The notes under the pieces: generated by a model
Told to the model about the DNA's origin: nothing
Databases searched by the model: none
The model's input: only the letters and a program-made list of their open reading frames with translations
Assembly: GCA_027486555.1 (NCBI GenBank)
Contig: JAIXOX010000041.1
Span: 1-64,000, forward strand
Source: Comamonadaceae bacterium
GTDB lineage: Bacteria > Pseudomonadota > Gammaproteobacteria > Burkholderiales > Burkholderiaceae_C
Direction: 5' to 3'
DNA: 64,000 nucleotides
Translations under genes and position numbers: made by a program
Part shown: piece by piece, positions 12,548-45,537 of the stretch
Position numbering within the stretch: the first letter of the stretch is position 1
How the letters are laid out: each line of letters begins with the position of its first letter

Positions 12548-12601
12548 CGTCATGAAAATGTCATGACACGGCAGTCTCGAAACCGTCATCAAAAATTCAC
12601 A
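12548..12601 (+). promoter_or_regulatory. Pho-box-like repeats upstream of ppk2
   Basis: CGTCATG (12548-12554), AAAA, TGTCATG (12559-12565) is a 7-4-7 direct repeat with an 11-bp period, as in PhoB sites. A second, weaker pair follows: CGTCATC (12584-12590), AAAA, ATTCACA (12595-12601). Both point toward ppk2. They were found by eye against the known consensus of two TGTCAT-like half-sites. Confidence 0.7.
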
Positions 12602-12640
12602 AGTTTGCGTCACATTAAAATTCTTTACCTTGGGTACCTC

Positions 12641-13549
12641 ATGACAAAAGCCGAGTCCATTCAAGAATCACAAATGCGCCAACTGCGCGAAGACCTGTTG
12701 GACAGCCTGGACGAAGAACTGGAGCTGGAACTGGACGACCGCTGGGGCGAGCAATCAGGCAGCAACCCGTTGGCCAACAGCGAACGAACCCAGTACTTTC
12801 GTGAGCTTTTACGCTTGCAATCTGAGCTGGTGATGTTGCAAGACTGGGTGGTCAAAACTGGCCACCGCATGGTGATCTTGTTTGAAGGTCGGGACGCGGC
12901 AGGCAAAGGTGGCGTGATCAAGCGCATCACGCAACGCCTGAACCCCCGGGTGTGCCGAGTTGCCGCCCTGCCCGCCCCCAACGACCGCGAAAAAACGCAG
13001 TGGTACTTTCAACGCTATGTCTCGCACCTGCCTGCAGCTGGTGAAATCGTGCTATTTGACCGCAGCTGGTACAACCGGGCCGGCGTGGAACGGGTCATGG
13101 GATTTTGCAGCGATGAAGAATACGAAGAGTTCTTCAGGTCAGTGCCCGAATTTGAAAAAATGCTGGTGCGCAGTGGCATTCAGCTGATGAAATATTGGTT
13201 CTCCATCACCGATGACGAACAACATGCACGATTTTTGGGCCGCATCCATGACCCGCTGAAACAATGGAAACTCAGCCCCATGGATCTGGAAAGCCGCCGC
13301 CGCTGGGAAGACTACACACGGGCCAAGGAAACCATGATCGAGCGCACCCACATTCCGCAGGCCCCTTGGTGGGTGGTGCAAGCGGTGGACAAGAAAAAAG
13401 CCCGCTTGAACTGCATTGACCACCTGCTGAGTCAAGTTCCTTACCACGAGGTGGAACATCCTCAGGTCTTGTTGCCTGAGCGGGTGCGCAACCCGGATTA
13501 CATTCGCCATCCGGTGCCCGATAACATGATGGTGCCAGAAAAGTACTGA
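12641..13549 (+). CDS. ppk2: polyphosphate kinase 2 family protein
   Basis: A PPK2-family enzyme of 302 residues that transfers phosphate between polyphosphate and nucleotides. It has Walker A FEGRDAAGKGG (81-91), the lid and Walker B region LFDRSWYNRAGVERVMGF, and the family C-terminus. The acidic N-terminal stretch (LDEELELELDD, about 23-33) is common in PPK2 proteins. ATG 12641 is chosen because residues before it do not match the family. Whether it makes GTP or ADP from polyphosphate, or makes polyphosphate, cannot be read from sequence alone. The upstream Pho-box-like repeats suggest induction under phosphate limitation. Confidence 0.93.
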   Translation: MTKAESIQESQMRQLREDLLDSLDEELELELDDRWGEQSGSNPLANSERTQYFRELLRLQSELVMLQDWVVKTGHRMVILFEGRDAAGKGGVIKRITQRLNPRVCRVAALPAPNDREKTQWYFQRYVSHLPAAGEIVLFDRSWYNRAGVERVMGFCSDEEYEEFFRSVPEFEKMLVRSGIQLMKYWFSITDDEQHARFLGRIHDPLKQWKLSPMDLESRRRWEDYTRAKETMIERTHIPQAPWWVVQAVDKKKARLNCIDHLLSQVPYHEVEHPQVLLPERVRNPDYIRHPVPDNMMVPEKY

Positions 13550-13565
13550 CCCCATCCTGAGCCGC

Positions 13566-14444
13566 TCAAACCCTGGTCAACAAGGGCTCACCCATTTTGA
13601 TACGCATACCCGTGGTGAGCCCATCGGCCCATTCGAAACCCGTAGGCACAAACACCAAAATGGTGGATCCGTGTTCAAACCACCCCATCTCTTGGCCTTT
13701 GACATAGTTGGCAACACAGGGGATTTCGTTGGGACCTTTGTAGCGTAAATTCAGCAAAACGTCGACCGCGTGAAAACGCATGCTGGCCACCAACACGGCA
13801 GCCACCGGTACGATCAAAAACGGCTCGCCAGACTGGGCCCGCATGTGCAGCACGGCGCGTTCGTTTTTACAAAACAGTTGCGCCACTCGCTTGAGCGCCA
13901 CGGGGTTGACGTTCCAGGTGTCGCCCGAGATGTAGGTCACATGTTGGAGTTGCACGTTGTGCGGTGCATGAAACCGGTGGTACATGGTGCTGGTCAAGCG
14001 CAAGGTCAGGTACTTGCCGCCTTCAAGCGCTTGCGGCCAATGGCTGCAAGCAGCGCCATCTCCCAACAAAGTTTGCAAGCGGTAAGGGAACCCTTTGGCC
14101 TGAAACACCTGACCCTCGCTGATGACACCGAAAGCCCCCACGATGGCGTCGCAAGGCGAGGTCAAAACCGATGGATCAGGGTCTACGGGCCGAGCGCCAG
14201 TTTTGAGCTCTCGGGTAAAGCAGGCGTGCAGGCTGTCAAATTTTTGCTGCTTGGCTTCACTCAAATCAAGGTCGCTGAACCAGCGCCACACGGCCATGGA
14301 GGCTTTGACCACGAAGGGGTTTTTAAGCTGACTCCACCAACCCATGAAATGGGTCAGAGCAATGCGTGGAATGCGGTTGGTGAGCAAGAAATTCAAGTCC
14401 TCTTGCAGAAGTGTTTTTTGAAACAGTGTGCGAATCTTCATCAT
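13566..14444 (-). CDS. psd: phosphatidylserine decarboxylase proenzyme
   Basis: A membrane-associated enzyme that converts phosphatidylserine to phosphatidylethanolamine. The 292-residue protein contains YHRFHAPHNV, the conserved His-rich segment of Psd, and GWFEHGSTILVF near the C-terminus. In the latter, the G-S-T site (Ser about 260) is where self-cleavage creates the pyruvoyl group. It starts at ATG 14444 (or 14441), after TTTGAGTG. It is divergent from the class III aminotransferase with only about 55 bp between them, so the two share a regulatory region. The location inside a phosphate block next to other lipid genes suggests a membrane remodelling role. Confidence 0.92.
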   Translation of the reverse strand: MMKIRTLFQKTLLQEDLNFLLTNRIPRIALTHFMGWWSQLKNPFVVKASMAVWRWFSDLDLSEAKQQKFDSLHACFTRELKTGARPVDPDPSVLTSPCDAIVGAFGVISEGQVFQAKGFPYRLQTLLGDGAACSHWPQALEGGKYLTLRLTSTMYHRFHAPHNVQLQHVTYISGDTWNVNPVALKRVAQLFCKNERAVLHMRAQSGEPFLIVPVAAVLVASMRFHAVDVLLNLRYKGPNEIPCVANYVKGQEMGWFEHGSTILVFVPTGFEWADGLTTGMRIKMGEPLLTRV

Positions 14445-14497
14445 GTTGTCACTCAAATTGAATAAAAAGAAATTTTGTTGACACAAGGAAATTGACT

Positions 14498-16129
14498 GTG
14501 AACTCCTCTTGGATCGGTTTGGGATTGCTAGCGGCCTTCGCTCCGGCGCTTGGACAGCGCATAAAGCTTTCTAGGGCCAAACACCGTTCGTTGGCTGGCC
14601 ACTCGCGCATGGCCAAACGCCTGGCCCGCTGGCTGCCAGGCTACAGCTTTGACGACAGCACGTTTTTTGGCTGTGATGGGGCACCTGCCAACATCCAGAG
14701 CCTTCGACGGGCGGCCTTCATGGACTTGGCCCAGAGCCTTCAAACACGGCACAGCAAGAGTATTGCGGCCACGGCCAGTGCCCGAGAAAACATCTCGGAC
14801 ATGCAGTTCATCACGGCCTACCGAGTGCCCTTTCAATTCAGCCCCATGGTGCAAGAGCATCTGAAAGTCGGCTCCTTTTTGGAATCTGCGCAAGGCGTTC
14901 AAGTCATCGACCTGGACGGGCAGGTGTTTTATGATTTGACGGGTTCGTATGGCGTCAACGTGTTCGGCGCAGACTTTTACAAAAAGACCATGGCCGAAGG
15001 TCTGGCCAAGACTCAGGACTTGGGACCGGTGCTGGGCTCTTACCACCCTGTGGTGGCGAGCAATGCACAGCGCCTCAAAGCCATTTCCGGCTTGGACGAG
15101 GTATCGTTTCACATGTCGGGCACCGAGGCCGTGATGCAAGCGGTTCGACTCGCTCGCTACCACACACGCCGCCCCAACATCGTGCGCTTTTGTGGTGCGT
15201 ACCATGGCTGGTGGGAGGATGTTCAACCCGGTCCAGGCAACCCCATGCCCCCACGCGAGACATACACCCTGAGCGATATGAACGAACGCAGCCTGGACGT
15301 GTTGCGCAGTCGCAAGGACATTGCTTGCGTGTTGATCAACCCTTTGCAAGCGCTGCACACCAACGCCAACGCGCCCGGTGACTCGACCCTGGTGGACAGC
15401 AGCCGACGCGCTGCCTATGACCGTGAGGCTTACACCGCTTGGCTGAAAGCCTTGAGGCAGGTGTGTACTGACAAAGGGATTGCGCTGATTTTTGACGAGG
15501 TGTTTTTGGGCTTTCGCTTGGCCGCCGGTGGTGCACAAGCCTACTTTGGCGTCAAGGCCGACATGGTCACATACGGCAAAACATTGGGCGGTGGTTTTCC
15601 GGTGGGTGTGGTGTGTGGTGAGCACCGGTGGATGCGCCGATTTAATGAGAAGCGTCCGGCAGACATTTGCTTTGCGCGCGGCACCTTCAATGCACACCCG
15701 GTGGTGATGGGCGCCATGTCTGCCTTTTTGGACCAACTTGAAACGCCTGAAATTCAGGCCATTTACAAGGGGGTCGATGCCCTTTGGAATGCGCGTGCAC
15801 AACACTTCAACCTCACCATGCAACAACACGGCGTGCCCTTGCAAGCCGCCAACATGTCCAGTGTCTGGACCTTGTTTTACACCCAAGCGAGTCGCTACAA
15901 CTGGATGCTTCAGTACTACCTCAGGCATGAAGGTTTGGCACTGAGTTGGGTTGGCACGGGTCGCTTGATTTTCAGCCTCAATTACAGCGATGCCGACTTT
16001 GAAGCTGTTTTGGAGCGGTTTGTGCGAGCAGCCAAACAAATGCAACAAGATGGTTGGTGGTGGCAAGATGCTCAACTCACCAACAAATCGATCCGAAGAC
16101 GCATTTTGAAAGAGACCTTCAACCTCTGA
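14498..16129 (+). CDS. class III aminotransferase (GSA-aminomutase-like) with N-terminal extension
   Basis: A PLP enzyme of 543 residues. The aminotransferase fold begins near residue 100. It shows the phosphate-binding MSGTEAVMQAVRLAR, the PLP-ring aspartate in LIFDEVFLGFR (about 333) and the Schiff-base lysine in VTYGKTLGGGFPVG (K361). It is about 110 residues longer than HemL, and the added N-terminus is basic and starts with a hydrophobic stretch (IGLGLLAAFAPAL), perhaps a membrane contact. I prefer GTG 14498, 8 nt after AAGGA, over TTG 14492. The substrate is unknown. Its neighbours (psd, an Mpo1-like protein and a glycosyltransferase) suggest an amino-lipid or head-group reaction rather than heme synthesis. 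Confidence 0.85.
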   Translation: MNSSWIGLGLLAAFAPALGQRIKLSRAKHRSLAGHSRMAKRLARWLPGYSFDDSTFFGCDGAPANIQSLRRAAFMDLAQSLQTRHSKSIAATASARENISDMQFITAYRVPFQFSPMVQEHLKVGSFLESAQGVQVIDLDGQVFYDLTGSYGVNVFGADFYKKTMAEGLAKTQDLGPVLGSYHPVVASNAQRLKAISGLDEVSFHMSGTEAVMQAVRLARYHTRRPNIVRFCGAYHGWWEDVQPGPGNPMPPRETYTLSDMNERSLDVLRSRKDIACVLINPLQALHTNANAPGDSTLVDSSRRAAYDREAYTAWLKALRQVCTDKGIALIFDEVFLGFRLAAGGAQAYFGVKADMVTYGKTLGGGFPVGVVCGEHRWMRRFNEKRPADICFARGTFNAHPVVMGAMSAFLDQLETPEIQAIYKGVDALWNARAQHFNLTMQQHGVPLQAANMSSVWTLFYTQASRYNWMLQYYLRHEGLALSWVGTGRLIFSLNYSDADFEAVLERFVRAAKQMQQDGWWWQDAQLTNKSIRRRILKETFNL

Positions 16130-16173: not shown

Positions 16174-16785
16174 TCAGCGGCTGACCTGATGAGCATCCTG
16201 ATGCGCAAAGCGTTGACCACGCAGCAATTGCAGCGGAGCTTTGTGATACAGGTAAATGTCGTGAAAAGGGTCAGTGATGATTTTGGTCATCCACACCAAT
16301 CCGGTCTGAGCATCTTGCAAAATAAACAAATGCAAGGTGCGAAACAGCAAGGCGCCAGCGCCCAAGTACAACCACGCATAACCAACTGCACGCAAGAAGC
16401 CGGAAAAATCTTCATGGGTCGGCAAGAGGCCAAACAGACCGGGGTTCATGAAAATTCCCAGAGGCAACAGTGCCCATACACTGAGCAAAACGACCTTGCG
16501 CCGAAGGTTGTAACCAACCTTGATCTCTTCCTTGAATTCTTGTGTAGCCTGATTGACTTCGTCGTAACCCAAGGGTTCAAAGAAAAAATGACCGGCTTGT
16601 CGCGATGTCATAGACACCAACCAGGCGAGCAAGGCTGCCAAGGGCGGATCAATGAACAACAGGACATACGCCAAGACAAATGCCATAGCACTTAAAAAAT
16701 GCAAGGACTGATTGATGCGGCAGTGGTGGTAGTAACGATGATCATCCCAACGCTGAACCCGCAAAGCTTCAAAAAAATCTTTCAC
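16174..16785 (-). CDS. His-rich membrane protein, possibly Mpo1-like (DUF962)
   Basis: A 203-residue protein with about four hydrophobic helices. Its motifs RINQSLHFLS (N25, H29) and QAGHFFFEP (H66 to E70) resemble the N-x-x-x-H and GH-x-x-FE patterns of the Mpo1/YGL010w family, Fe(II) dioxygenases acting on 2-hydroxy fatty acids in yeast. Further histidines occur in DDHRYYHH, RTLHLF and DPFHDIYLYHKAP. The family link is from memory of motifs and is tentative. A GTG start at 16785 is set by a perfect GGAGG 7 nt upstream. Pho-box-like repeats at 16828-16845 face this gene. Confidence 0.55.
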   Translation of the reverse strand: MKDFFEALRVQRWDDHRYYHHCRINQSLHFLSAMAFVLAYVLLFIDPPLAALLAWLVSMTSRQAGHFFFEPLGYDEVNQATQEFKEEIKVGYNLRRKVVLLSVWALLPLGIFMNPGLFGLLPTHEDFSGFLRAVGYAWLYLGAGALLFRTLHLFILQDAQTGLVWMTKIITDPFHDIYLYHKAPLQLLRGQRFAHQDAHQVSR

Positions 16786-16890: not shown

Positions 16891-16908
16891 TTGTCATCAA
16901 GTTGTTAA
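16891..16908 (+). promoter_or_regulatory. second Pho-box-like repeat upstream of the glycosyltransferase
   Basis: TTGTCAT (16891-16897), CAAG, TTGTTAA (16902-16908) matches the Pho-box pattern. It lies very close to the proposed start codon at 16920, so it may be a fortuitous match, or translation may start further downstream (ATG 16932). Confidence 0.45.
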
Positions 16909-16919
16909 ATCGACAAGTC

Positions 16920-18134
16920 ATGATGTTACCTATGGAACATGTATCGATTGATCACTTGCTTGTTGAGAATTTTGAACCCGAGAACTCAGCTTTGCGAATT
17001 GCTGTAGTCACCGAGACTTGGCCCCCTGAAGTCAATGGTGTGGCCCTGACCCTGTCCAAACTTATCTTGCAATTGAGTCAACGTCAACACACCATCCAAC
17101 TCATTCGCCCCCGGCAAGACAAGCACGACACTGCTTCACAACAAACAGGTTGGTCTGAACTGTTGTTGCGCGGCTTGCCGATCCCTCGTTACCCGCAGCT
17201 GAAATTGGGATTTCCCAGTAAAAAACAACTCGTCAAGGCGTGGACTCTCAAGCGACCCGACCTTGTGCACATCGCCACAGAAGGCCCTTTGGGATGGTCG
17301 GCCCTTCAAGCAGCCAAGGTGTTGCGCCTGCCAGTGACCTCGGATTTCAGAACCAATTTTCACAGTTACAGCAGGCACTACGGCGTTGGTTGGTTGAGCA
17401 AACCAATCGTGTCTTATTTGCGGAAATTTCACAACCGCACCTTGTGCACCATGGTTCCTACCATGGCCCTGCAGGCGCAATTGTTGGCATCGGGTTTTGA
17501 AAATTTGCGCGTTGTTGCGCGGGGCGTCGACACACAGGTCTTTCACCCTGGGCAACGCAGTCTGGCACAAAGGGCTGAATGGCAAGTGCAAGATGACACA
17601 GTGGTGCTGCTGTCGGTAGGTCGCTTGGCTGCAGAAAAAAACCTTGACCTCATTGTGAACACTTACCAGTCACTCAAGCAAAGTGGCAGAAAAGTCAAAA
17701 TGGTTTTTGCGGGCGATGGCCCATACCGTGCAAAACTACAATCCGATTGCCCCGAGGCGGTGTTCATGGGCATGTGCAGCCACGCGCAGTTGGCGGTGGC
17801 CTACGCCAGTTCAGATTTGTTTTTGTTCCCCAGCCTGACCGAGACATTTGGCAACGTGACTCTGGAAGCACTGGCCAGTGGCACGCCCGTCTTGGCCTTT
17901 GATTGTGCAGCCGCCACAGAACTCATACGCCACGAACACAACGGATGGCTCGTGCCGGGTGAAGACCCGCAGCTCTATGTGCTCAACGCTCTGAAAATCA
18001 CCCGCAGCAGCGCCACTTTGCGCAAGGCTCGACAACACACTGCCTCCAGTGTTGCACCCTGGGACTGGCACCAAATTGCCAATCAGGTTGAAACGATCTT
18101 CCGCTCGGTCGTCAAAGACCACCACCCTGGCTGA
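16920..18134 (+). CDS. family-1 (GT4) glycosyltransferase, MgtA/Agt-like
   Basis: A retaining GT-B glycosyltransferase of about 404 residues. The N-domain begins IAVVTETWPPEVNGVALTL, typical of GT4 enzymes that glycosylate lipids (diacylglycerol or mannosyl-lipid transferases such as MgtA, SqdX and Agt). The C-domain has LLSVGRLAAEKNLDLIV and the acidic donor site FPSLTETFGNVTLEALASGTPV. The start is uncertain (ATG 16920, 16923 or 16932) because none has a good ribosome site. With ugd and plcP in the same block, I infer a diacylglycerol glycosyltransferase making phosphorus-free glycolipid. Sugar and acceptor are not proven by the sequence. Confidence 0.8.
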   Translation: MMLPMEHVSIDHLLVENFEPENSALRIAVVTETWPPEVNGVALTLSKLILQLSQRQHTIQLIRPRQDKHDTASQQTGWSELLLRGLPIPRYPQLKLGFPSKKQLVKAWTLKRPDLVHIATEGPLGWSALQAAKVLRLPVTSDFRTNFHSYSRHYGVGWLSKPIVSYLRKFHNRTLCTMVPTMALQAQLLASGFENLRVVARGVDTQVFHPGQRSLAQRAEWQVQDDTVVLLSVGRLAAEKNLDLIVNTYQSLKQSGRKVKMVFAGDGPYRAKLQSDCPEAVFMGMCSHAQLAVAYASSDLFLFPSLTETFGNVTLEALASGTPVLAFDCAAATELIRHEHNGWLVPGEDPQLYVLNALKITRSSATLRKARQHTASSVAPWDWHQIANQVETIFRSVVKDHHPG

Positions 18135-18135: not shown

Positions 18136-19362
18136 TCAGTTTTTCAATCTCAGGGCTTTCCATGGTTTGAGTGCTGCCAACAAGGGAAGACTGAACAGCA
18201 GCATGATGGGCAACAAGGGAACGTCCCAAGCCAGCATTGCGCTGTAAATGCCCAGCATGACCAGTACACTCAGATTTTCATTGAAGCCTTGAACGGCAAT
18301 GGAGCGACCCGATTTCATGATTTTTGCGCCACGGTGCTGCAGCAAAGCATTCATGGGCACCAACAACATGCCCCCGGCCCAGCCCGCCAAAAGCAGCATG
18401 ATCACGGCCAGCCACAAGACTTTTGTGAGCGCCATACATGGCAACAGCACGGCCAAGACCAGTCCCCAAGGCAATGCCCGGCGAGCATCGAAAATTTGGC
18501 ACGTTGACGCCGCCATGGCCGCCCCACCAATCACGCCCAAGGCCACTACCGCTTGCAAATAGGCACCTTGTTGCAACGTCAAACCTGCATTTGTCTGCGC
18601 CCAAACCAGCACGGCAAACTGCAGCACTGCGCCAACGCCCCAACACAAAGTGGTGACATACAAAGACATGCCTCCCAATGGGTCGGCCCACAACTGGCGG
18701 TTGTGACGCCAAAACGTTGACCAACGCATGGCGGACAAGGTCAATCGCTGAACAGCTTGAACTTTGACCGTGCCCACGCCCATATTGAACAAGGCAGAAA
18801 TCCCGTACACCGCAGCCACCACGGCAAAAGCGCCCAAAATCTGAGTCGAAACGCCCATATGGAATTCGGAACTGATCACAGGAATGAGGTGTTGTAAACC
18901 TGGTGACATGTGAGCATGAATCATTGCCCCACCCAAGGCCACGCCCAGCATCACCGACATCACCACCGACACCTCCAACCACGCATTGGCCTTGACCAAT
19001 AAACGCGGCGATACCGATTCGCACACCCAACCGTACTTGGCGGGTGCGTACAAGGCCGCGGCCAATCCAGTCAATGCAAAGGCCAACAAAGGATGAACAC
19101 CCGTGACCAAAAAAATCACGCCTACCAGTTTCAAACCATTCATCGCAGCCATCAAGCGATTTTTGGGAAAAGCATCGGCCAAAGGCCCAACCACGGGAGC
19201 CAAGAGCACATAAGACAAAGTGAAAGAAAACTTGAGCAAAGGTGCCCACCAGGGCGGATAGCCTTGCTCTTGTAAAAAATAAACCCCCAAGATCATCAAG
19301 GCGTTGTCCGCCAAGCCACTGGCAAATTGCGCCAGGATCAAAAAGAAAAAACCTTTAGGCAT
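18136..19362 (-). CDS. lplT: lysophospholipid transporter LplT-like MFS protein
   Basis: A 408-residue inner-membrane protein with about twelve helices. The N-terminus GFFFLILAQFASGLADNALMILGVYFL and the segment LKFSFTLSYVLLAPVVGPLADAFPKNRLM match LplT, which flips lysophospholipids to the cytoplasmic face for re-acylation. LplT normally sits beside the acyltransferase-acyl-ACP synthetase gene aas; here it overlaps the 3' end of ugd by 8 bp, so the two are co-transcribed. That unusual partner, and the Pho-box-like site before ugd, suggest recruitment to starvation-induced lipid turnover. It converges on the glycosyltransferase with 1 bp between the stop codons. Confidence 0.85.
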   Translation of the reverse strand: MPKGFFFLILAQFASGLADNALMILGVYFLQEQGYPPWWAPLLKFSFTLSYVLLAPVVGPLADAFPKNRLMAAMNGLKLVGVIFLVTGVHPLLAFALTGLAAALYAPAKYGWVCESVSPRLLVKANAWLEVSVVMSVMLGVALGGAMIHAHMSPGLQHLIPVISSEFHMGVSTQILGAFAVVAAVYGISALFNMGVGTVKVQAVQRLTLSAMRWSTFWRHNRQLWADPLGGMSLYVTTLCWGVGAVLQFAVLVWAQTNAGLTLQQGAYLQAVVALGVIGGAAMAASTCQIFDARRALPWGLVLAVLLPCMALTKVLWLAVIMLLLAGWAGGMLLVPMNALLQHRGAKIMKSGRSIAVQGFNENLSVLVMLGIYSAMLAWDVPLLPIMLLFSLPLLAALKPWKALRLKN

Positions 19363-20815
19363 TCACAGGGGCGCTCGAAGAAGACGGCTGCTCGGGCTCG
19401 ATCTTTGGCTGATCAGGCTGACTGCGGTCAAACTTTAAACCGCGAACCAAGGCATTGCGACGACCCACCCCTTGGTAGGCCAAGCCCAGTGCCTGCAAAG
19501 CCTGTGGGTTGTATAAATTTCGCCCATCCACAATGAAGGGGTTGCGCATGATCGCTTTCATGGCTTCAAAGTCTGGGTTGTGAAAATTCTTCCATTCGGT
19601 CAAGACCAACAAGGCATCCGCGCCTTGCAAAGCCTGCATATCGCTTGGAACAATTTCAAATCGCGACAGCAATTCAGGATCTTGAGCAAAGTCCTCCCGC
19701 AAAACTTTCATGGCCTCTGTGCTGGCCACGGGATCGTATGCGGTCACCTCAGCACCCCGCACCAACAACTCACGTATGACCACCCGGCTGGGCGCTTCGC
19801 GCATGTCATCGGTGTTGGGCTTGAAAGCCAAACCCCAAATAGCAATTTTTAAACCCGACAAATCCTCGCCGGCATGCTGAACCAAACGTTCAACCAAAAT
19901 CCGTTTTTGACGTTCATTCACAATTTCTGTAGCACTGACCACGGCCATGCTGTGACCATGCAACTTGGCGGTGCTGACCAGCGCTTGTGTGTCTTTCGGA
20001 AAACAACTCCCGCCATAACCACACCCCGCGTACAAAAAGCCGTGACCGATGCGTTCGTCAGCGCCCATGCCGCGGCGTATCTGGTCCACATCAGCACCCA
20101 ACTCATCGGCCAGATTGGCGATCTCGTTCATGAACGAAATGCGTGCAGCGAGCATCGCATTGGACGCGTATTTGGTCAGTTCAGCGCTGCGCACATCCAT
20201 CCAGACAGTGCGGGCATGGTGGCGGTTGAAACTGGCGTACAAATCCCCCATCATGCGTTGGCTGCGGGCATGGTGAGGCCCCTCGTCCAAGCCGACCACA
20301 ATCCGGTCAGGGTGCATGAAATCGTCGATGGCCGCCCCCTCTTTGAGGAACTCGGGATTGGACACCACGTCGAACATATCGTGAGGCATGCCACGCTGGG
20401 ACAATTCGTGGGCGATCGCTGCACGAACCTGATCCGCCGTTCCCACAGGCACGGTGGATTTGTTGACCACCAGTTTGAAGCCTTTCAGATGGCGACCCAC
20501 CATGGACGCCACCGACAGCACATGTCCCAAATCGGCAGAACCGTCCTCGGATGGCGGAGTACCCACTGCGATGAACAGAACATCGCCATGCTCTATGGCA
20601 TCAACAGCATCGCATGTAAAACGTATACGGCCATCGGCTTGATTTTTGTTCAACAAGGCTTTGAGGCCTGGTTCAAAAATGGGCACATTACCCTCTTGCA
20701 AGGTGCGGATTTTTTCAGCATCCTTGTCCAGGCAAACCACCTTGAAACCCAGGTCAGAGAGACACGCTCCTGTAACCAAACCTACATAACCCGAACCAAT
20801 GACTGTGACGCGCAT
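19355..20815 (-). CDS. ugd: UDP-glucose 6-dehydrogenase
   Basis: A cytoplasmic NAD-dependent enzyme that oxidises UDP-glucose to UDP-glucuronate. The 486-residue protein has the Rossmann start MRVTVIGSGYVGLVTGACL, the central helix region and the catalytic cysteine in GYGGSCFPKDTQAL. ATG 20815 is chosen because AGGAG precedes it by 8 nt; an upstream in-frame ATG (20845) lacks one. The C-terminus carries an extra low-complexity tail (PKIEPEQPSSSSAPVNA). UDP-glucuronate could feed capsule or a glucuronosyl lipid; the Pho-box-like repeat upstream and the lipid genes around it favour the lipid role. Confidence 0.95.
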   Translation of the reverse strand: MRVTVIGSGYVGLVTGACLSDLGFKVVCLDKDAEKIRTLQEGNVPIFEPGLKALLNKNQADGRIRFTCDAVDAIEHGDVLFIAVGTPPSEDGSADLGHVLSVASMVGRHLKGFKLVVNKSTVPVGTADQVRAAIAHELSQRGMPHDMFDVVSNPEFLKEGAAIDDFMHPDRIVVGLDEGPHHARSQRMMGDLYASFNRHHARTVWMDVRSAELTKYASNAMLAARISFMNEIANLADELGADVDQIRRGMGADERIGHGFLYAGCGYGGSCFPKDTQALVSTAKLHGHSMAVVSATEIVNERQKRILVERLVQHAGEDLSGLKIAIWGLAFKPNTDDMREAPSRVVIRELLVRGAEVTAYDPVASTEAMKVLREDFAQDPELLSRFEIVPSDMQALQGADALLVLTEWKNFHNPDFEAMKAIMRNPFIVDGRNLYNPQALQALGLAYQGVGRRNALVRGLKFDRSQPDQPKIEPEQPSSSSAPVNA

Positions 20816-20874
20816 TTCTACATCTCCTATGACTGCATGATTCACTCACAGCATGAAACCAAGAAGACATTTTG

Positions 20875-23641: not shown

Positions 23642-23654
23642 TTTTTCCCCCTGA

Positions 23655-24428: not shown

Positions 24429-24482
24429 GTTTATTCCTGTGAATGCAAAGTAAAAAAGCAGCGAAATTCGGAACCATCAGCC

Positions 24483-25343: not shown

Positions 25344-25344
25344 G

Positions 25345-26334: not shown

Positions 26335-26357
26335 CAAACAAAGAGCATCAAATTAAA

Positions 26358-34223: not shown

Positions 34224-34224
34224 T

Positions 34225-35475: not shown

Positions 35476-35831
35476 GCCCGGTTTCCCTTTTTAGCGTCAT
35501 GGACGAAGACGTTGCCGTCAAGGCCCTGGCGGCTTTGGCGCAAAGTTCTCGCCTGAAGGTGTTTCGCGCCATTTTGGGCACAGGCCCTCAGGGTATTCAG
35601 CCCGGTCAGCTGTCTGCAGCGCTCGACATTCCCGCCAATACCTTGTCCTTTCACCTCAAAGAATTGCAACACGCGGCTTTGGTCAGCGTGCAACGCGAGG
35701 GCAGATTTTTGCGCTACCGCGCCGATTTGCAGGCCATGCAAAGCTTGATGGACTTTTTGACAGCGCACTGCTGTCAGGGTGTGCCCTGCGGCAACACGCT
35801 CAATCTGACTTGTGATTCACGTCAAGTTTGA
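35472..35831 (+). CDS. arsR: ArsR-family arsenic-responsive repressor
   Basis: A 119-residue winged-helix repressor (ALAQSSRLKVFRAIL, then TLSFHLKELQHAALVSVQREGRFLRY). Cysteines at about 100, 101, 106 and 114 near the C-terminus probably bind As(III). Unlike many ars operons the regulator is the last gene. It overlaps arsJ by 4 bp, so expression is coupled. Confidence 0.9.
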   Translation: MSPVSLFSVMDEDVAVKALAALAQSSRLKVFRAILGTGPQGIQPGQLSAALDIPANTLSFHLKELQHAALVSVQREGRFLRYRADLQAMQSLMDFLTAHCCQGVPCGNTLNLTCDSRQV

Positions 35832-35966: not shown

Positions 35967-37469
35967 ATGCAAACCAAGTCTCTCTACGCCGCCATCGATC
36001 TGGGCTCCAACAGTTTTCGGCTAGAAATTGGCCAAATGGACGCCGGTCAATTGCGCCGTGTGGAATACATCAAAGAAACCGTGCGCCAAGGCAACGGACT
36101 TGATGCGGAACGCAACTTGACCGAGGACGCCATGGCACGAGGCTGGGAATGTCTGGCGCGTTTTGCTGAACGCATCGCAGGCTTCAACCCCAGCCAAGTG
36201 CGTGCTGTGGCCACGCAAACCCTTCGCGAAGCGCGCAACCGCGATGTGTTTTTGACCAAAGCCAAGATCCTGTTAGGGTTCCCCATCGAGGTCATCGCCG
36301 GAAAAGAAGAAGCAAGGTTGATTTATTTAGGCGTCTCGCACCTGCTTCCGCAATCGACTGAACGGCGTTTGGTGGTCGACATTGGAGGACGTTCGACCGA
36401 AATGATTTTGGGCCAACACGAAAGCGCCAGCACATTGGAGTCTTATCGGGTCGGCAGCGTCGGCTGGTCCATGAAATACTTTGCGGATGATCTGTGGACC
36501 CCTTCTGCGTTCAAAGCTGCCGAAATCGGTGCCAAAGCGGTGCTTGACGAAGCACAAATTTTGTTCAGTCGCCAACATTGGGACAAATGTTACGGCTCTT
36601 CTGGCACCGTGGGTGCAGTGTCTGACGTGCTGAGCGCAGCAGGTTGGCCCGAGGGCAAAGTCACCCGTGAAGGCTTGTCTTGGCTCAAAGAGAGATTGCT
36701 CAAGGCCCAGAAACCTGAAAACTTGCGCATCGAAGGTGTCAAAGAAGACCGAAAACCCGTCATTGGGGGGGGCTTGGCTGTTTTGCAAGCTGTGTTTGAT
36801 TTATTGCAAATCGACGAAATGCAGGCGGCACAAGGTGCGCTGCGCCACGGTGCCTTGTACGACCTGATTGAGCGTGAGGGCATGCACGATGTACGCTCCT
36901 CCATGGTGGATTGGTTGGCTCAGCGTTTTGGCACCGACAAACTGCAAGCCGAACGGGTGTCACGCACCGCTCAACATATGCTGCTAGCACTGATACCCGC
37001 TTCTTCAGACATGCCCAGTGCTGAACGCCAACGCTATTTGCAAAAGCTCCTTTGGGCCTGCCAGTTGCACGAAATCGGCATGCGCATTTCGCACAGCGAT
37101 TACCACAAACACGGTGCCTACATTCTGGACAACACCGACTTGCAGGGCTTCACTCTGGACGAGTTGCACAGGCTCAGTCAACTGGTACTGGGACACAGAG
37201 GCAAACTGCGCAAGCTGGAATCCGAACTTGAAGAAACCAGCTTTGTGCGTCAACTCATGGCACTGCGTGTGGCAGTGATTTTGTGCCACGCCCGGCGTGA
37301 CCCCGACCTGTCGGGGTTGAGCATGGTCTGCGATGTACAACGCCGAACAGCGCAATTGACCATGGAAGCAGACTGGGCTGAACTCTGGCCCCAATCGGCC
37401 CATTTGCTGCGCGAGGAAACCAGTGCATGGCTCAAAACGGATTGGACGTTTCAAATCAACATGAACTGA
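35967..37469 (+). CDS. ppx: exopolyphosphatase (Ppx/GppA family)
   Basis: A 500-residue enzyme of the sugar-kinase/actin-like fold that removes terminal phosphate from polyphosphate. Phosphate-loop motifs AAIDLGSNSFRLEIG (about 8-22) and VVDIGGRSTEMILG (about 140) are present, and GSSGTVGAVSDV follows. The C-terminal HD-like helical domain contains LHEIGMRISHSDYHKHGAYIL. Length fits Ppx. A GppA-type pppGpp hydrolase is the alternative, but the ppk1 neighbour favours Ppx. Confidence 0.93.
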   Translation: MQTKSLYAAIDLGSNSFRLEIGQMDAGQLRRVEYIKETVRQGNGLDAERNLTEDAMARGWECLARFAERIAGFNPSQVRAVATQTLREARNRDVFLTKAKILLGFPIEVIAGKEEARLIYLGVSHLLPQSTERRLVVDIGGRSTEMILGQHESASTLESYRVGSVGWSMKYFADDLWTPSAFKAAEIGAKAVLDEAQILFSRQHWDKCYGSSGTVGAVSDVLSAAGWPEGKVTREGLSWLKERLLKAQKPENLRIEGVKEDRKPVIGGGLAVLQAVFDLLQIDEMQAAQGALRHGALYDLIEREGMHDVRSSMVDWLAQRFGTDKLQAERVSRTAQHMLLALIPASSDMPSAERQRYLQKLLWACQLHEIGMRISHSDYHKHGAYILDNTDLQGFTLDELHRLSQLVLGHRGKLRKLESELEETSFVRQLMALRVAVILCHARRDPDLSGLSMVCDVQRRTAQLTMEADWAELWPQSAHLLREETSAWLKTDWTFQINMN

Positions 37470-40944: not shown

Positions 40945-41901
40945 TCAAACTTGGTTAGCCAAACTGCGGTGTACAGGATCAACCGTGGCTTCCAGAGGCC
41001 ATGTGGCGCGGGTCAACATGACAGACTGATCGCCCCAATGAATGATTTCCAAACGCCCATCCATGTGTTCCACCAAGGCAGTGCGGCTTTCAACCCAGTC
41101 ACCGTCATTGCAATACAACACCCCGTTGACTTGGCGAATTTCAGCATGGTGAATATGCCCGCACACCACACCATCAAAACCACGACGCTGAGCTTCATGA
41201 GCCACAGCAACTTCGAAATCGCTGATGAAATTGACCGCTTTTTTAACCTTGAGCTTTAAATAAGCCGACAAAGACCAGTAACCCAGACCCATGCGGGCGC
41301 GAAAGCTGTTCAGATGGCGGTTCATTTTCAAGGTCAGCTCATACAACCAATCCCCCACATAGGCCAGCCATTTGGCAAACTGAATCACCCCATCAAAATG
41401 GTCGCCATGGACCACCCACAGCTTCATGCCCGCGGCAGTGGTGTGACAGGTATCGTGAACCACCTCTATCCCTCCAAACGCATGGCCGACAAAATGCCTG
41501 GCAAATTCATCGTGGTTGCCAGGCACATAAATCACACGGCAACCTTTGCGAGCGCGGCGCAACAATTTCTGAACCACGTCGTTGTGGCTTTGTGGCCAAA
41601 ACCAGCGGCGTCGCAATTGCCAACCATCCACGATGTCACCAACCAGGTAAAGACTTTCGCTGGTGTGGTGCTTTAAAAAATCAAGCAAAGCCTCGGCTTG
41701 AAAACCCGGGGTTCCAATGTGCAGGTCCGAAATGAAGACAGCCCGAAAACGTGTGCGACCATTGGGCGTGTCATCTTCATCTGCATCGGCTTGAGGTGAC
41801 ACAGTCAGTGATGAATTTTGGGGTAACAGTTGTGCCTGCGAGCCCGCAAATTGATCGTTCAAGGTTGGCGTTTTTTGCCCCATCAATGTGCCGAACATCA
41901 C
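40945..41901 (-). CDS. plcP: PlcP-like metallophosphoesterase (LpxH-type fold)
   Basis: A calcineurin-like phosphoesterase of 318 residues with metal-binding motifs FISDLHIGT (about 55), LVGDIVDGWQLRRRWFW, GNHDEFARHF, VVHGDHFDG and VCGHIHHAE. The long form with the region WPQSHNDVVQKLLRRARKG resembles PlcP, which cleaves phospholipids to diacylglycerol under phosphate starvation, more than the shorter LpxH. The first 45 residues are low-complexity. Its start overlaps the olsB stop codon (ATGA at 41898), which supports a shared lipid-remodelling role. LpxH activity remains the alternative. Confidence 0.78.
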   Translation of the reverse strand: MMFGTLMGQKTPTLNDQFAGSQAQLLPQNSSLTVSPQADADEDDTPNGRTRFRAVFISDLHIGTPGFQAEALLDFLKHHTSESLYLVGDIVDGWQLRRRWFWPQSHNDVVQKLLRRARKGCRVIYVPGNHDEFARHFVGHAFGGIEVVHDTCHTTAAGMKLWVVHGDHFDGVIQFAKWLAYVGDWLYELTLKMNRHLNSFRARMGLGYWSLSAYLKLKVKKAVNFISDFEVAVAHEAQRRGFDGVVCGHIHHAEIRQVNGVLYCNDGDWVESRTALVEHMDGRLEIIHWGDQSVMLTRATWPLEATVDPVHRSLANQV

Positions 41902-42743
41902 AATACATCCATCGAAAAATGTTTACGATAGCGTGCAGGCAAATCTGCCGTGCGCATCATCATCGGCAAGTCAGCGGTATTAAAGTCAGGATCCCAAGCT
42001 GGCGCGCCCAAGACCTTGGCACCCAAGCGCAAATAACCTTTGATCAGCGCAGGCGGCTCTACCTGCAAGTGGTGCTCCAAGGCCTCAACCGGCAATGCCA
42101 AGCGGGGCCGCACATGGTATTGAATCTCTGCCAAATGGGTTTGCCGCAGTTGGTGCCAAATGCTTGCTGCGGCATTGCCCGTGACCACTCCGTTGTGAAA
42201 CATGGGAATGCTGGCGCAACCGATCATCGTGTCCAGCCGATTGCGGTCCATGAACTCAAACAAGGCTCCCCACAATGCCATGATGACCCCGCCATGGCGG
42301 TAATCGGCGTGCACGCAACTGCGTCCAAGTTCAACCATGCGCTGGCGCATGTCACGCAGACGGGTCAAATCAAATTCTGTGTCACTGTAAGTGCTGCCTG
42401 CGCGCTTGGCCTGCGCAGGGGTGAGCACCCGGTAGGTACCAATCACCTGGCCGGTCGCAACGTCGCGAACCAGCAAATGCTCGCAATAGTCATCAAACAA
42501 ATCGATGTCATGGCCTTGCAATGTGTTGGGCAAGTTGGCACCCATTTCGGTCGCAAAAACCGAATACCTCAGTCTCTGCGCTTCACGAACTTCGTCTTGA
42601 TGTTGCGCCCAACCGACCGCAATGGTGCTCTGCATGCGCCGAGGCAAAAAATCAATGCCGGTTGCAGTTTGCCCCGGATGAAGTGACCCCCTGGGCATTT
42701 GAACTGGCGACAATGCAAAAGTGGGATTGGGCAGCTCTTTCAT
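41898..42743 (-). CDS. olsB: OlsB-like ornithine N-alpha-acyltransferase (GNAT fold)
   Basis: A 281-residue acyltransferase of the PF13444 type. The segment REAQRLRYSVFATEMGANL, then HDIDLFDDYCEHLLVRD and GQVIGTYRVLTP, is the standard start of OlsB/hemolysin-like acyltransferases. The second half reads VELGRSCVHADYRHGGVIMALW and PALIKGYLRLGAKVLGAPAWDPDFNTAD. OlsB joins a 3-hydroxy fatty acid to ornithine, the first step to phosphorus-free ornithine lipids. The second enzyme, OlsA, is not in this window. AAGGA lies 9 nt before ATG 42743. Confidence 0.85.
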   Translation of the reverse strand: MKELPNPTFALSPVQMPRGSLHPGQTATGIDFLPRRMQSTIAVGWAQHQDEVREAQRLRYSVFATEMGANLPNTLQGHDIDLFDDYCEHLLVRDVATGQVIGTYRVLTPAQAKRAGSTYSDTEFDLTRLRDMRQRMVELGRSCVHADYRHGGVIMALWGALFEFMDRNRLDTMIGCASIPMFHNGVVTGNAAASIWHQLRQTHLAEIQYHVRPRLALPVEALEHHLQVEPPALIKGYLRLGAKVLGAPAWDPDFNTADLPMMMRTADLPARYRKHFSMDVL

Positions 42744-43112: not shown

Positions 43113-43133
43113 TAGAGCATTAACGATTAAAAC

Positions 43134-43607
43134 ATGCTCGAAAAACTTGCTGCCATTCGTGTGATCAATGCTTGTCAATCTTTCAACCCCAAGCGCAGGG
43201 CACCCTACGCTGTGGACTTGACCTTCGAATCAGGTCAATGTGTGGGATTGCTGGGTGCTTCGGTCTCAGGTAATTCCACCTTGCAACGCAGTTTGTGCGG
43301 CCTTGCGTGGATTGACGGCTTGAACAGTCAGGTTCAAATTTGGGGCAAGCGCCTTCCAAAATCTAAAAAACTCAGTGGCGGTGTTCGTCAATTGAGTACA
43401 AGCCTTGACCGTACTTTGCAGGAACATAACGATCTGTCAGACATTTTTGACTGCAGCACACACCAGACCCATCGCCACTTATCGGCTTGGCTGGAAAACT
43501 TGCGCATTGTGCCGCGTGATCCGCGCAGCAGCACTGCAGGATTTGATCAAGGCCATCTGGCGCTAGGATCGACCCTGTACAGCAACAATTTAGGAAGAAC
43601 AAGATGA
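43134..43607 (+). pseudogene. decayed phosphonate ABC-transporter ATPase (phnC-like) remnant
   Basis: An ORF of 157 codons. Its first part follows an ABC ATPase (AVDLTFESGQCVGLLGASVSGNSTLQRSLCGLAWIDG), in the style of PhnC. The Walker A lysine is replaced by asparagine (GNST in place of GKST), the Q-loop is unrecognisable, and the signature and Walker B are missing. In another frame the last stretch before the TAG at 43564 reads RAAALQDLIKAIWR, perhaps the end of a second lost gene. Functional ATPases are about 250-280 residues, so this is a remnant. It lies in front of the FAD oxidase and phnX. Confidence 0.7.
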
Positions 43608-44719
43608 GCAACGATGTGATCATTGTGGGCAGCGGCATCGTTGGCATGGCTTGCGCTTGGGCAGCTCTGCAACAAGGCAAAAGCGTCCGTGTGATTGACC
43701 GCGAGCCTTTTTGTGTGGGGGCCTCGATTCGAAACTTTGGCTTTATCACCGTGACCGGCCAAGGCCGTGGCGATACTTGGCGTCGCGCTCGTCGATCGCG
43801 AGATGTCTGGGCTGCAGTGGCCCCGCAAGCGGGCATTGCGATTGAACACGAGGGCTTGTATGTGCTGGCTCAAAGACCACAAGCCAAAGTGGTTTTGCAG
43901 GAATTGTGCCAACAAGATGAGGGGAAGGATCTGCAATGGCTCGAAGGACAAGCACTGCAAGACCAAGCCCCACAGTTTGTGCTGGACCACTTGCAGGGCG
44001 CTTTGTACAGCCCACACGAACTGCGCATTGAAGCGAGAAGCGCCATAGAAAAACTGCGGCTTTGGCTGACCACACAAGGGGTGGTGTTCCAGATGGGCCA
44101 GCATGTGCAAGAGGTCATCTCTGGTGCTGTTTTCACGGCTGGTCAATGGCTTCAAGCTGATCGCATCATGGTTTGCCCAGGGCCCGACATGCGCAGCCTG
44201 TTTCCCGAGGTCTTTAGCCAACACCACACCCAGCTGTGTCAACTTCAAATGCTGCGGGTGCAGCCGCCACACGGCTACAAACTGGGAGCCGGGGTGATGA
44301 GCGATTTGAGCCTGGTGCGTTACCACGGTTACACCGAATTGCCCGGCGCGCAATTGCTGCGCGATCAGTTGCACACCGAAGCACGCCAAGAACTGGACCA
44401 CGGCATTCACTTGATCGTGGTGCAAAGCCAAGACGGCTCGCTGGTGGTGGGCGACTCACACCACTACGGGCAAGCCATGCGTCCTTTTGCCTTGCGCGAA
44501 GTGGAAGACCTGATCCTTCACGAAATGCAACGATTGCTGTGTCTGGGCCACTTCCAAGTGACCGAGCGCTGGACGGGCATCTACCCCAGCGGTCCACAAG
44601 ACAGCTTGGTGCGTGAGGTATTGCCCGGTGTACAGCTCGTCAGCGTGACCAGCGGTACCGGCATGAGCACATCCTTTGGTTTGGCTGAAGAAATCATTCA
44701 AAACTGGCGTCCTTCATGA
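43604..44719 (+). CDS. FAD-dependent oxidase, TIGR03364-like (phosphonate-associated)
   Basis: A DAO-type flavoprotein of 371 residues with the FAD fingerprint DVIIVGSGIVGMACAWAALQQGKSVRVIDRE, and ASIRNFGFITVTGQG, which resembles the TIGR03364 family. These oxidases are found with phnX, and to my knowledge they act on 2-aminoethylphosphonate or its N-methyl form to give phosphonoacetaldehyde. It overlaps phnX by 4 bp (ATGA at 44716), so the two act in sequence. AGGA lies 9 nt upstream of the ATG. Confidence 0.85.
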   Translation: MSNDVIIVGSGIVGMACAWAALQQGKSVRVIDREPFCVGASIRNFGFITVTGQGRGDTWRRARRSRDVWAAVAPQAGIAIEHEGLYVLAQRPQAKVVLQELCQQDEGKDLQWLEGQALQDQAPQFVLDHLQGALYSPHELRIEARSAIEKLRLWLTTQGVVFQMGQHVQEVISGAVFTAGQWLQADRIMVCPGPDMRSLFPEVFSQHHTQLCQLQMLRVQPPHGYKLGAGVMSDLSLVRYHGYTELPGAQLLRDQLHTEARQELDHGIHLIVVQSQDGSLVVGDSHHYGQAMRPFALREVEDLILHEMQRLLCLGHFQVTERWTGIYPSGPQDSLVREVLPGVQLVSVTSGTGMSTSFGLAEEIIQNWRPS

Positions 44720-45537
44720 ATCTTTCACAAGATCACAAAATTCTAGGCCTTGTGCTCGACTGGGCAGGCACCATTGTCGACTTTGGCAGCTTGGCCCCCA
44801 TGGGCGCCTTTGTCGAGTTGTTTGCACGGCACGGTGTAGAAATCACCATTGAGGAGGCACGTGTGCCCATGGGCTTGCCTAAGATTGAGCACATCGCAGC
44901 GCTGGGTCGCACGCAGACCATCGCTGCCCAATGGAGCGCCCTGCACGGCAGGCCCTTCAGCCCAGATGATGCACAGCAACTGCTCAAGGAGTTTGAGCCC
45001 ATGAGTTCCAAAACTGCCCTGGACCGCAGCAGTTTCATTCCAGGTTTCATGGCGACCTACCAAGCTCTGACAAACCAAGGCTTGGCTTTTGCCACGACCA
45101 CGGGTTACACCCGAAAAATCATGACCCCCTTGATTGAGATTGCCCGAGCGCAGGGTTTCAAACCCGACTTGGTTGTTTGCTGTGACGATGTGGCCCGCGG
45201 CCGACCTGACCCCATGGGCATGCAAGCGTGTTTGCAAGCCATGGGTTTGCAAGGAAAAGCTGCCCAAGTCATCAAGATCGATGACACTGCGCCGGGTCTG
45301 GCCGAAGGTCTGGCCTCTGGCAGCTGGACGGTTGGTGTGGCCGTCAGTGGCAACGCACTGGGCTGGTCACATGAAACCTGGGAGCTGGCGAGTCAAACAG
45401 ACCAAGCCCAAGCCAGGTCTGGGGCAACTGCCGTGCTGCAAGCATCTGGGGCCCATGAAGTGATCGACAGCGTGGCCGATTTGCCCTTGGCGATTGCCCG
45501 CATTGAGCGGCGCATGGCTCTGGGCGAAACCCCTTGA
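44716..45537 (+). CDS. phnX: phosphonoacetaldehyde hydrolase (phosphonatase)
   Basis: A HAD-superfamily enzyme of 273 residues that splits phosphonoacetaldehyde into acetaldehyde and phosphate. The nucleophile D15 lies in LVLDWAGTIVDFGS, where the alanine two residues later is typical of PhnX. The Schiff-base lysine K56 lies in MGLPKIEHI, and ATTTGYTRKIM and CCDDVARGRPDP match motifs II to IV. It is the second gene of the oxidase-phnX operon; the Nudix gene follows 7 bp later. Confidence 0.93.
   Translation: MNLSQDHKILGLVLDWAGTIVDFGSLAPMGAFVELFARHGVEITIEEARVPMGLPKIEHIAALGRTQTIAAQWSALHGRPFSPDDAQQLLKEFEPMSSKTALDRSSFIPGFMATYQALTNQGLAFATTTGYTRKIMTPLIEIARAQGFKPDLVVCCDDVARGRPDPMGMQACLQAMGLQGKAAQVIKIDDTAPGLAEGLASGSWTVGVAVSGNALGWSHETWELASQTDQAQARSGATAVLQASGAHEVIDSVADLPLAIARIERRMALGETP

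Follow-up and report, generated by a model that had tools for sequence, protein, structure and literature searches.

Whether the many phosphate-related genes at one locus of a Comamonadaceae bacterium form a single starvation programme or merely neighbour one another is the question raised here. The window, i.e., the whole stretch of 64,000 nucleotides that was analysed, comes from a genome of 92% completeness whose nearest named relatives are Limnohabitans. From gene order and upstream sites, the block is probably a Pho-regulon neighbourhood that Limnohabitans and its kin have conserved.

Gene content of the block

Gene identities were scored in bits against the family cut-offs of NCBIfam and Pfam models. 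All phosphate-starvation genes named in the initial annotation were found between 12563 and 45537, most of them over these cut-offs, but a class-III aminotransferase gene (14492-16129) had been passed over. The features are:

12563..13549, +, ppk2, polyphosphate kinase 2 (TIGR03707 381 bits, cut-off 302)
13566..14486, -, psd2, dedicated Psd paralogue (TIGR00163 155 bits, cut-off 112)
14492..16129, +, amtIII, class-III PLP aminotransferase with an additional N-terminal helix (PF00202)
16174..16785, -, mpo1, Mpo1-like membrane protein (PF06127 22.0 bits, cut-off 24)
16902..18134, +, GT4 glycosyltransferase, agt-related (PF00534/PF13439)
18136..19362, -, lplT, lysophospholipid transporter (NF008397 397 bits, cut-off 297)
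19355..20845, -, ugd, nucleotide-sugar dehydrogenase, probably UDP-glucose dehydrogenase (TIGR03026 433 bits, cut-off 190)
20910..27433, -, pstS-pstC-pstA-pstB-phoU-phoB-phoR (bits, with cut-offs in brackets: PstS 365 (205), PstC 297 (196), PstA 276 (193), PstB 397 (343), PhoU 218 (130), PhoB 329 (296), PhoR 367 (334))
28238..29398, -, GT28 glycosyltransferase, diglucosyl-diacylglycerol-synthase-like (over PF04101; NF010135 81.7 bits, under cut-off)
30590..32815, -, phoX alkaline phosphatase (PF05787 402.7 bits, cut-off 24)
33090..35831, +, gap-arsJ-arsR, arsenate detoxification (over NF033735 and NF033734)
35967..37469, +, ppx/gppA exopolyphosphatase (over PF02541; TIGR03706 301 bits, cut-off 307)
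38188-38802, -, sixA-like (SixA 71 bits, cut-off 74.5)
38667-40739, -, ppk1 (PPK1 856 bits, cut-off 466)
40945-41901, -, plcP, calcineurin-like phosphoesterase (PF12850)
41898-42743, -, olsB (over PF13444)
43134..45537, +, phosphonate-transporter remnant, TIGR03364 oxidase (fadox, 402 bits, cut-off 285) and phnX (PhnX 290 bits, cut-off 220)

The ArsJ-type Gap (542 bits, cut-off 450) adjoins ArsJ (521 bits, cut-off 400), which is the arrangement of an ArsJ system, and ArsR falls slightly under NF033788 (52.5 versus 55) while reaching Pfam HTH_20. The overlapping olsB and plcP form a single unit (40945..42743, -). OlsB does not reach the OlsB equivalogs (NF052554 166 bits, cut-off 350), and PlcP is placed at family level as a calcineurin-like phosphoesterase, matching no PlcP model and scoring far under the LpxH cut-offs; its name comes from its neighbours, since agt and olsB lie next to plcP in relatives. 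At the right-hand end, PhnX and the TIGR03364 oxidase are present, while of the adjacent phosphonate ABC transporter gene deletion has left only a remnant (43134-43607), so that the locus falls short of a 2-aminoethylphosphonate degradation system. The probable start of psd2 is the ATG at 14444 or 14441. An ORF of 540 aa at 14528-16150 (-) was rejected as a gene, with no family over cut-off; ten homologues preserve the opposite plus frame at 66-93%. Rfam gave 0 matches within the window. The gathering is not due to chance: searching for 15 phosphate/lipid genes (at least 40% identity over more than 40% of the query) gave 0 hits in 293,681 bp of control DNA, taken as 20 stretches from this genome.

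Conservation of the neighbourhood in relatives

The grouping had initially been considered unusual, which fails within the family. Among 60 genus genomes, plcP lies 9.7-44.6 kb from phoR in 31/31 that carry both on one contig, and in the family's other genera the distance is at most 30 kb in 27 of 47 testable genomes, plcP being far from phoR in the other 20. These distances and presence lists were compiled manually from search tables; pairs on separate contigs were excluded from the distances, G325 (second phoR copy 11.7 kb from plcP) from the 47, and G045 and G056 (weak plcP hits, 24-25%) from the plcP-bearing genomes. Beyond the family, plcP and phoR are no more than 26 kb apart in at least 10 genomes of four other families, a tally read by eye that covers linked genomes only. 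The proposed gene-order comparison thus found a conserved linkage rather than a grouping missing from all relatives.

The core order was kept in 9 of 10 linked family genomes mapped, the exception being G331, where pstS, ppx, sixA and ppk1 were not seen at the locus. A core of phoR-phoB-phoU-pstBACS, ppx, sixA, ppk1, agt, plcP and olsB is common in part of the family, and the gene grouping is old. Some genomes add to this core phoX, gap-arsJ-arsR and, as a module apart, the lipid genes psd2-amtIII-mpo1-GT4-lplT-ugd, often joined by ppk2, while others lack them. Among named isolates, Limnohabitans sp. WS1, 15K and Bal53 carry the block, and Hydrogenophaga flava and pseudoflava are carriers of the lipid module. 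Clusters with pstSCAB-phoUBR near ppk and ppx are common in Burkholderiales. The same arrangement was found in the family genomes studied here, to which the block adds plcP-olsB, phoX, the ArsJ genes and the lipid module. At the level of the abstract rather than of gene content, the block also resembles the marine phosphate genomic islands of the alphaproteobacterium HIMB59 (PMC10734472), in that phosphate genes are gathered in a region varying between relatives.

The available text of PMC4796936, PMC9239053 and PMC8528852 describes plcP next to a GT4 glycosyltransferase gene, together with Pho boxes. As in PlcP-Agt remodelling (SAR11, Phaeobacter, Agrobacterium, Methylosinus, Pseudomonas), most genus genomes with a putative plcP (30/47) keep agt, next to plcP in those mapped. 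Unlike these systems, the window has no diacylglycerol glycosyltransferase gene agt beside plcP, and its block also takes in pst-pho and bears psd2-amtIII-mpo1. Whereas agt adjoins plcP in most relatives, the gene immediately after plcP is ppk1 in the window; the sole match to agt of G033 in the 92% complete genome at E <= 1e-30 is GT4 (36% identical), and candidates for the function are GT28 and this related GT4, some 23 kb from plcP. In the 17 of 47 plcP-bearing genus genomes without agt, amtIII is present in 15, versus 20 of the 30 with agt; that agt was lost in exchange for the lipid module is only suggested by these counts, not shown. As in Agrobacterium, where OlsB makes ornithine lipid under PhoB (available text of PMC3972451), an OlsB-like acyltransferase gene carries a Pho-box-like site, although in the window it shares one unit with plcP.

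Pho-box-like sites and the proposed starvation programme

The E. coli Pho-box consensus gave 11 hits in the window (at least 11 of 14 letters) versus about 8.9 per shuffle, i.e., no excess. After this negative scan and inspection of upstream regions, a matrix trained on 18 pstS promoters, all outside the genus, was used, and each promoter was expressed as the z of the mean best score against shuffles over 5 to 20 orthologues per gene. Across the genus, z values were 12.9 for pstS, 11.6 for ppk1, 10.7 for olsB, 10.0 for phoX, 8.9 for gap, 8.6 for mpo1, 8.3 for ppx, 7.7 for ppk2, 7.0 for GT4, 6.0 for GT28, 5.5 for ugd and, more weakly, 5.0 for amtIII, the values being inflated because orthologous promoters are not independent. 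Hence 12 gene starts reached z >= 5.0, or 13 counting corA, divergent genes being counted from one common site. In the window, the following sites were located:

12547, +, Pho-box-like site common to ppk2 and divergent corA, 18.9 bits
16811..16828, +, Pho-box-like site between divergent mpo1 and GT4, 11.4 bits
20875, -, Pho-box-like site of ugd, 12.7 bits
27508, -, Pho-box-like site of the pstS operon, 9.1 bits
29454, +, Pho-box-like site of GT28, 12.3 bits
32855, -, Pho-box-like site of phoX, 8.7 bits
35911, Pho-box-like site of ppx, 9.1 bits
42811, -, Pho-box-like site of olsB-plcP, 9.1 bits

The window alone has no strong site at ppk1 (0.4 bits), gap (5.8) or amtIII (6.6), for which only the genus average rises; 9% of the genus orthologues of amtIII exceed 9 bits, versus 5% of shuffles. 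No Pho box of its own was found for psd2 (genus z 1.8; 0-11% of loci elsewhere), nor for fadox-phnX among genus orthologues (z -0.9 and 0.9).

These sites could be chance matches of a degenerate matrix to AT-rich intergenic DNA, in an island that is not co-regulated. Indeed, of the 16 island sites of at least 9 bits, 14 score 9-13 bits, five fall within genes and a further two coincide with called gene starts; random pieces of 220 bp attain 9 bits in about 5-6% of cases, and the consensus scan had done no better than shuffles. Such a coincidence is nevertheless highly improbable in our estimation: 16 sites in 30.7 kb of island compare with 17 in the control stretches, a ninefold density, while operon-inner genes and most of the non-phosphate neighbours are indistinguishable from shuffles (the exceptions being flavoP, with z 3.4, and some genes on the right, which reach at most 2.9), and the out-of-genus matrix also rises upstream of amtIII and mpo1 in further genera and beyond the class. 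Many genes of the block seem, from these matches, to share one type of switch.

The suggestion that the block works as one starvation programme is supported by the sites before most units and by the conserved linkage, both read from sequence, whereas fadox-phnX, lacking a Pho box and preceded by a transporter remnant, does not fit. In such a programme, PhoR-PhoB would turn the units on together when phosphate is short. PstSCAB and PhoX would collect phosphate, PPK1, PPK2 and PPX would handle polyphosphate, and Gap-ArsJ would remove arsenate. PlcP would cleave phospholipids to diacylglycerol, which GT4 and GT28 could convert to glycolipids using UDP-glucose and the UDP-glucuronate supplied by Ugd, while OlsB would begin ornithine lipid and the psd2-amtIII-mpo1 trio may make or complete a further phosphorus-free lipid.

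The psd2-amtIII-mpo1 lipid module

As far as gene order tells, psd2, the aminotransferase, the Mpo1-like protein and GT4 (with lplT and ugd in part of the cases) are a conserved unit, which is also present in further genera and orders and beyond the class, in many cases with Pho-box-like sites. Among the family genomes sampled, plcP was present in 37/37 that bear amtIII, and outside the genus the two genes lie at most 15 kb apart in 17 of 21 testable genomes. Within the genus, their co-occurrence gave a Fisher p of 0.002 over all 60 genomes and 0.24 over those at least 90% complete, such chance probabilities for linkage and co-occurrence assuming independent genomes, which these are not. The initial annotation had rightly seen a Psd family member, yet it is a second, divergent copy within a module that had been missed. 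A housekeeping role was rejected, given another psd elsewhere in the same genome and the divergence of psd2 from housekeeping Psd (28-31% identity in 5 genomes). Instead, psd2 groups with the psd2 of other classes (51-59% identity to five of six distant ones, 43% to the sixth); its processing motif is HGST rather than LGST, with the G-S-T site retained. In amtIII, K363 is invariant in 42 aligned rows, and the nearest fold is the AMT domain of mycosubtilin synthase, glutamate-semialdehyde aminomutases being also near; HemL was rejected (TIGR00713 171.5 versus 527, NF000818 178 versus 398), although the fold is still that of the class. The Mpo1-like family score rises over the PF06127 cut-off in homologue L231 (24.7) and stays under it in four others; the tested L235 ORF gave no PF06127 hit, and none of the 69 PDB matches of the predicted helical model had E <= 0.001.

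We infer that the module encodes a pathway under Pho control, so far undescribed, whose product would be a phosphorus-free lipid, probably an amino- or glycolipid. The narrower proposal, held with even confidence, is that in at least two Pseudomonadota classes psd2, amtIII, the Mpo1-like protein and a lipid glycosyltransferase would convert PlcP-derived diacylglycerol or glycolipid into a phosphorus-free amino-lipid replacing phosphatidylethanolamine in its role. The aminotransferase would add an amine to a keto-lipid, the pyruvoyl group of Psd2 would decarboxylate a lipid bearing an amino acid and the Mpo1-like protein would perform an oxidation, the order of the steps being a guess.

Two other explanations have to be weighed against this pathway. 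Class-III PLP enzymes include ethanolamine-phosphate phospho-lyases, and amtIII accompanies plcP; the trio might accordingly scavenge phosphate or nitrogen from head groups released by PlcP (e.g., ethanolamine or serine derivatives) and make no new membrane lipid. This is unlikely, considering that amtIII is nearest to mycosubtilin synthase and aminomutases, that its partners are on the lipid side (a glycosyltransferase, the Mpo1-like membrane protein and, in many cases, LplT) and that its neighbours at locus L235 are BtaA, a BtaB-like methyltransferase, plcP and agt, with no psd among them. Still less probable is an inherited gene order in which only the core is a Pho cluster, psd2, amtIII, mpo1 and lplT being passengers engaged in ordinary membrane upkeep. 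Non-phosphate order is kept as well (rho, orf8299 and mate stand by phoR in many family genomes), Psd and LplT handle phospholipids, and no other listed phosphate or lipid gene is seen at 32 of 56 amtIII loci in the 67-77% class or at 14 of the 20 distant loci, many of the stretches being short. Against it stand the separate psd in the genome with the distinct grouping of psd2, the constant company of amtIII and plcP, and the Pho-box-like sites that amtIII and mpo1 also carry in further genera and beyond the class.

No description of the module was found in open-licence literature, including the available text of PMC4796936, PMC9239053, PMC6365617, PMC3972451 and PMC8528852. Likewise, no open-licence paper was found that joins DUF962 to phosphate and lipid, or plcP, Pho box and aminotransferase, the word "aminotransferase" being absent from the main text of PMC9239053 and PMC8528852.

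Limnohabitans are common in lakes, and phosphate is frequently the limiting nutrient there. To judge by the block, an entire response, sensing and membrane rebuilding included, can stay together over long periods in one clade, so gene-order comparison there is a cheap route to new members. The psd2-amtIII-mpo1 trio, which tracks plcP across genera, often with the same type of switch, is such a candidate, and it makes the question of phosphorus-free lipids in these bacteria directly testable.

Conservation and gene content of the island

Tblastn was used to place window proteins on 46 regions from 42 genomes (19 from the genus, 15 from the rest of the family and 8 from other families), and plcP-phoR distances were taken from whole-genome matches of both genes. 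In the genus sample (60 genomes), plcP was found in 47, with phoR on the same contig in 31 and the two genes 9.7-44.6 kb apart in all 31. Outside the genus, both genes shared a contig in 47 genomes of the family sample (140 genomes), at a distance of up to 30 kb in 27 and farther in 20. Of the ten linked family genomes retrieved, nine showed the gene order phoR-phoB-phoU-pstB-pstA-pstC-pstS, ppx, sixA, ppk1, agt (a glycosyltransferase gene), plcP, olsB, with these genes, ppx excepted, on one strand. Among the 250 genomes of the order sample, 131 carried plcP, and inspection by eye, covering linked pairs only, placed it within 26 kb of phoR in at least 10 genomes of four other families (G061, G110; G078, G167, G261; G202, G290; G089, G133, G268); the eight of these that were mapped showed different gene orders. 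The distances in the three samples suggest a linkage that is ancestral in part of the family, and it recurs elsewhere. The gene-order comparison proposed in the initial annotation, which had called the grouping unusual, revealed a linkage conserved in the genus and part of the family rather than an oddity.

The window covers 64 kb on contig 76 of a draft genome (3.83 Mb, 92% complete). With the aminotransferase as the yardstick, its closest named relatives are isolates of Limnohabitans, among which Limnohabitans sp. WS1 reaches 93%. The genes named initially were all found, the list differing on three points: the first two features below were missing, psd is a second copy (psd2), and a small ORF is a remnant. 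This ORF (43134-43607, 157 aa), preceding the phosphonate oxidase, matches at its two ends separate pieces of a transporter region (PhnC-like ATPase start) that genomes G033, G027 and G044 carry some 3.2 kb apart; judged by these matches, it is a deletion remnant of that region.

Between psd and the first glycosyltransferase, + strand: amtIII, class-III PLP aminotransferase
Between psd and the first glycosyltransferase, - strand: Mpo1-like protein (mpo1)
11398-12501: CorA-family metal transporter, divergent from ppk2, with a strong Pho-box-like site common to both
29745-30449: ParA-like ATPase, between GT28 and phoX
4528-5853: TIGR03862-family flavoprotein, with an upstream Pho-box-like site (5890-5907, 11.0 bits)

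The ParA-like ATPase stays with GT28 in G044, G028, G027 and G046.

Pho-box-like sites

A first scan with the E. coli Pho-box consensus gave no excess. After this null result, an 18-bp matrix was derived from 18 pstS promoters of genomes outside the genus. It was applied to 250 bp per gene start (220 upstream, 30 inside) in the window as well as in up to 19 genomes of the genus, with dinucleotide shuffles for comparison. Scores were raised (z from 12.9 to 5.0, values that overstate certainty because related promoters are not independent) for pstS, ppk1, olsB, phoX, gap, mpo1, ppx, ppk2, GT4, GT28, ugd and amtIII. For amtIII the mean was up, yet only 9% of genus orthologues reached 9 bits (shuffles 5%). 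The corA gene, whose upstream region is also that of ppk2, had a z of 6.8 and is perhaps part of the phosphate response. Intermediate values were obtained for psd (1.8, start uncertain), arsJ (2.5) and the flavoprotein (3.4), and some right-hand genes reached up to 2.9 with 2-5 orthologues each. In the same genomes, the score was not raised before phoR, phoB, phoU, pstB, pstA, pstC, lplT, plcP, sixA, arsR, phnX and fadox (the oxidase paired with phnX), nor before neighbours such as mate, nudix, faah and dctP.

Site density, which is free of the promoter-kinship flaw, reached 16 sites of at least 9 bits in 30.7 kb of the island vs 2 in 30.8 kb of the remaining window, while control stretches, taken from 20 other contigs, gave 17 in 293,681 bp. 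Five of the 16 are intragenic and two lie at called gene starts. The island is a real, conserved Pho neighbourhood, whose units would be induced in common; the single phosphate programme inferred initially is supported by sequence to that extent, but its phosphonate part appears to lie outside, given the scores of fadox and phnX.

Spread of the psd2-amtIII module

Using amtIII as bait, at least 587 loci were confirmed, with titles mostly from Burkholderiales. In the best 80, some truncated by contig ends, psd was near in 78, mpo1 in 75, GT4 in 70, lplT in 42 and ugd in 32, and strands alternate among the core genes (psd -, amtIII +, mpo1 -, GT4 +). Two public MAG titles, of L143 (Akkermansia muciniphila) and L178 (Bordetella parapertussis), seem at odds with content and are probably mislabelled. 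The amtIII gene occurs in 38 of 60 genomes of the genus sample and, at E <= 1e-80, in 28 of 397 of the phylum sample, 20 of them outside the class. Of 20 distant loci fetched, 18 have psd nearby, 19 mpo1 and 7 an agt-like glycosyltransferase. At L235:5459-12529 (another order), plcP, a BtaB-like methyltransferase, BtaA (DUF3419), amtIII, an mpo1-like gene and agt lie side by side, with no psd. At least one of 15 phosphate/lipid genes was found in 20/24 locus stretches at >=78% identity, 24/56 at 67-77% and 6/20 at distant identity, and in 0/20 control stretches.

Co-occurrence with plcP was complete in the family sample (37/37 of the amtIII genomes vs 102/140 overall; Fisher p 1.7e-6, kinship uncorrected). 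Outside the genus, the two genes share a contig in 21 genomes, within 15 kb in 17; inside it, plcP accompanies 35 of 38 (p 0.002, or 0.24 in more complete genomes, kinship uncorrected). Among 13 genus genomes examined, two psd copies occur in the 8 with the module and one in the 5 without; two copies were likewise present in three further genomes of the family that were checked. In pairwise identity, the window psd2 reaches 51-59% with five of six distant psd2 and 43% with the sixth, which forms a very long branch, but 28-31% with the housekeeping Psd of five genomes. Both groups separate in a midpoint-rooted tree with several weak inner branches and one housekeeping row read from too early a start.

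With the same matrix, upstream regions reached a best score of at least 9 as follows: at loci of 67-77% identity, 64% of 55 for amtIII (shuffles 2%) and 92% of 51 for mpo1 (shuffles 6%); in the closer class, 13% of 23 for amtIII (shuffles 5%) and 77% of 22 for mpo1 (shuffles 6%); for psd, 0-11%. Outside the class, where 14 genomes were scored, such values were obtained for amtIII in 8/14 and for mpo1 in 8/13, vs 5.6% of 840 random pieces from the same loci; the scan found no such module site in G573, G590, G561, G564, G581 and, within the class, G727.

Enzymes and proposed lipid role

The top match of the amtIII model (mean pLDDT 82) was the AMT domain of mycosubtilin synthase, followed by glutamate-semialdehyde aminomutases, in agreement with the sequence search. 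Lys363 is invariant in 42 rows, and a hydropathy scan called no membrane span in the additional N-terminal helix. For the Mpo1-like protein, which has several invariant His, a helical structure is predicted, with no significant match in PDB. In five distant loci, four outside the class and one inside (L231:2344-5025, L233:6607-9483, L230:3674-6355, L232:2719-5385, L239:7374-10109), GT4 is part of a fusion protein whose other domain, about 540 residues long, shows a PHP-like arrangement of invariant His and Asp. No Pfam match was obtained for this domain in two proteins scanned, and it might replace PlcP at those loci.

According to published reports, diacylglycerol is the product of PlcP and Agt enzymes take UDP-glucose or UDP-glucuronate (PMC4796936, PMC9239053, PMC8528852), a Pho box can precede olsB (PMC3972451), and P. 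aeruginosa makes a phosphate-stress glycolipid whose synthase is given there as not known (PMC8528852). Beyond the gene content, linkage, site enrichment and co-occurrence established here, GT4 and GT28 would act as diacylglycerol glycosyltransferases supplied by Ugd. What is new is the psd2 module, in which psd2, amtIII and mpo1 would lead to an additional lipid product.
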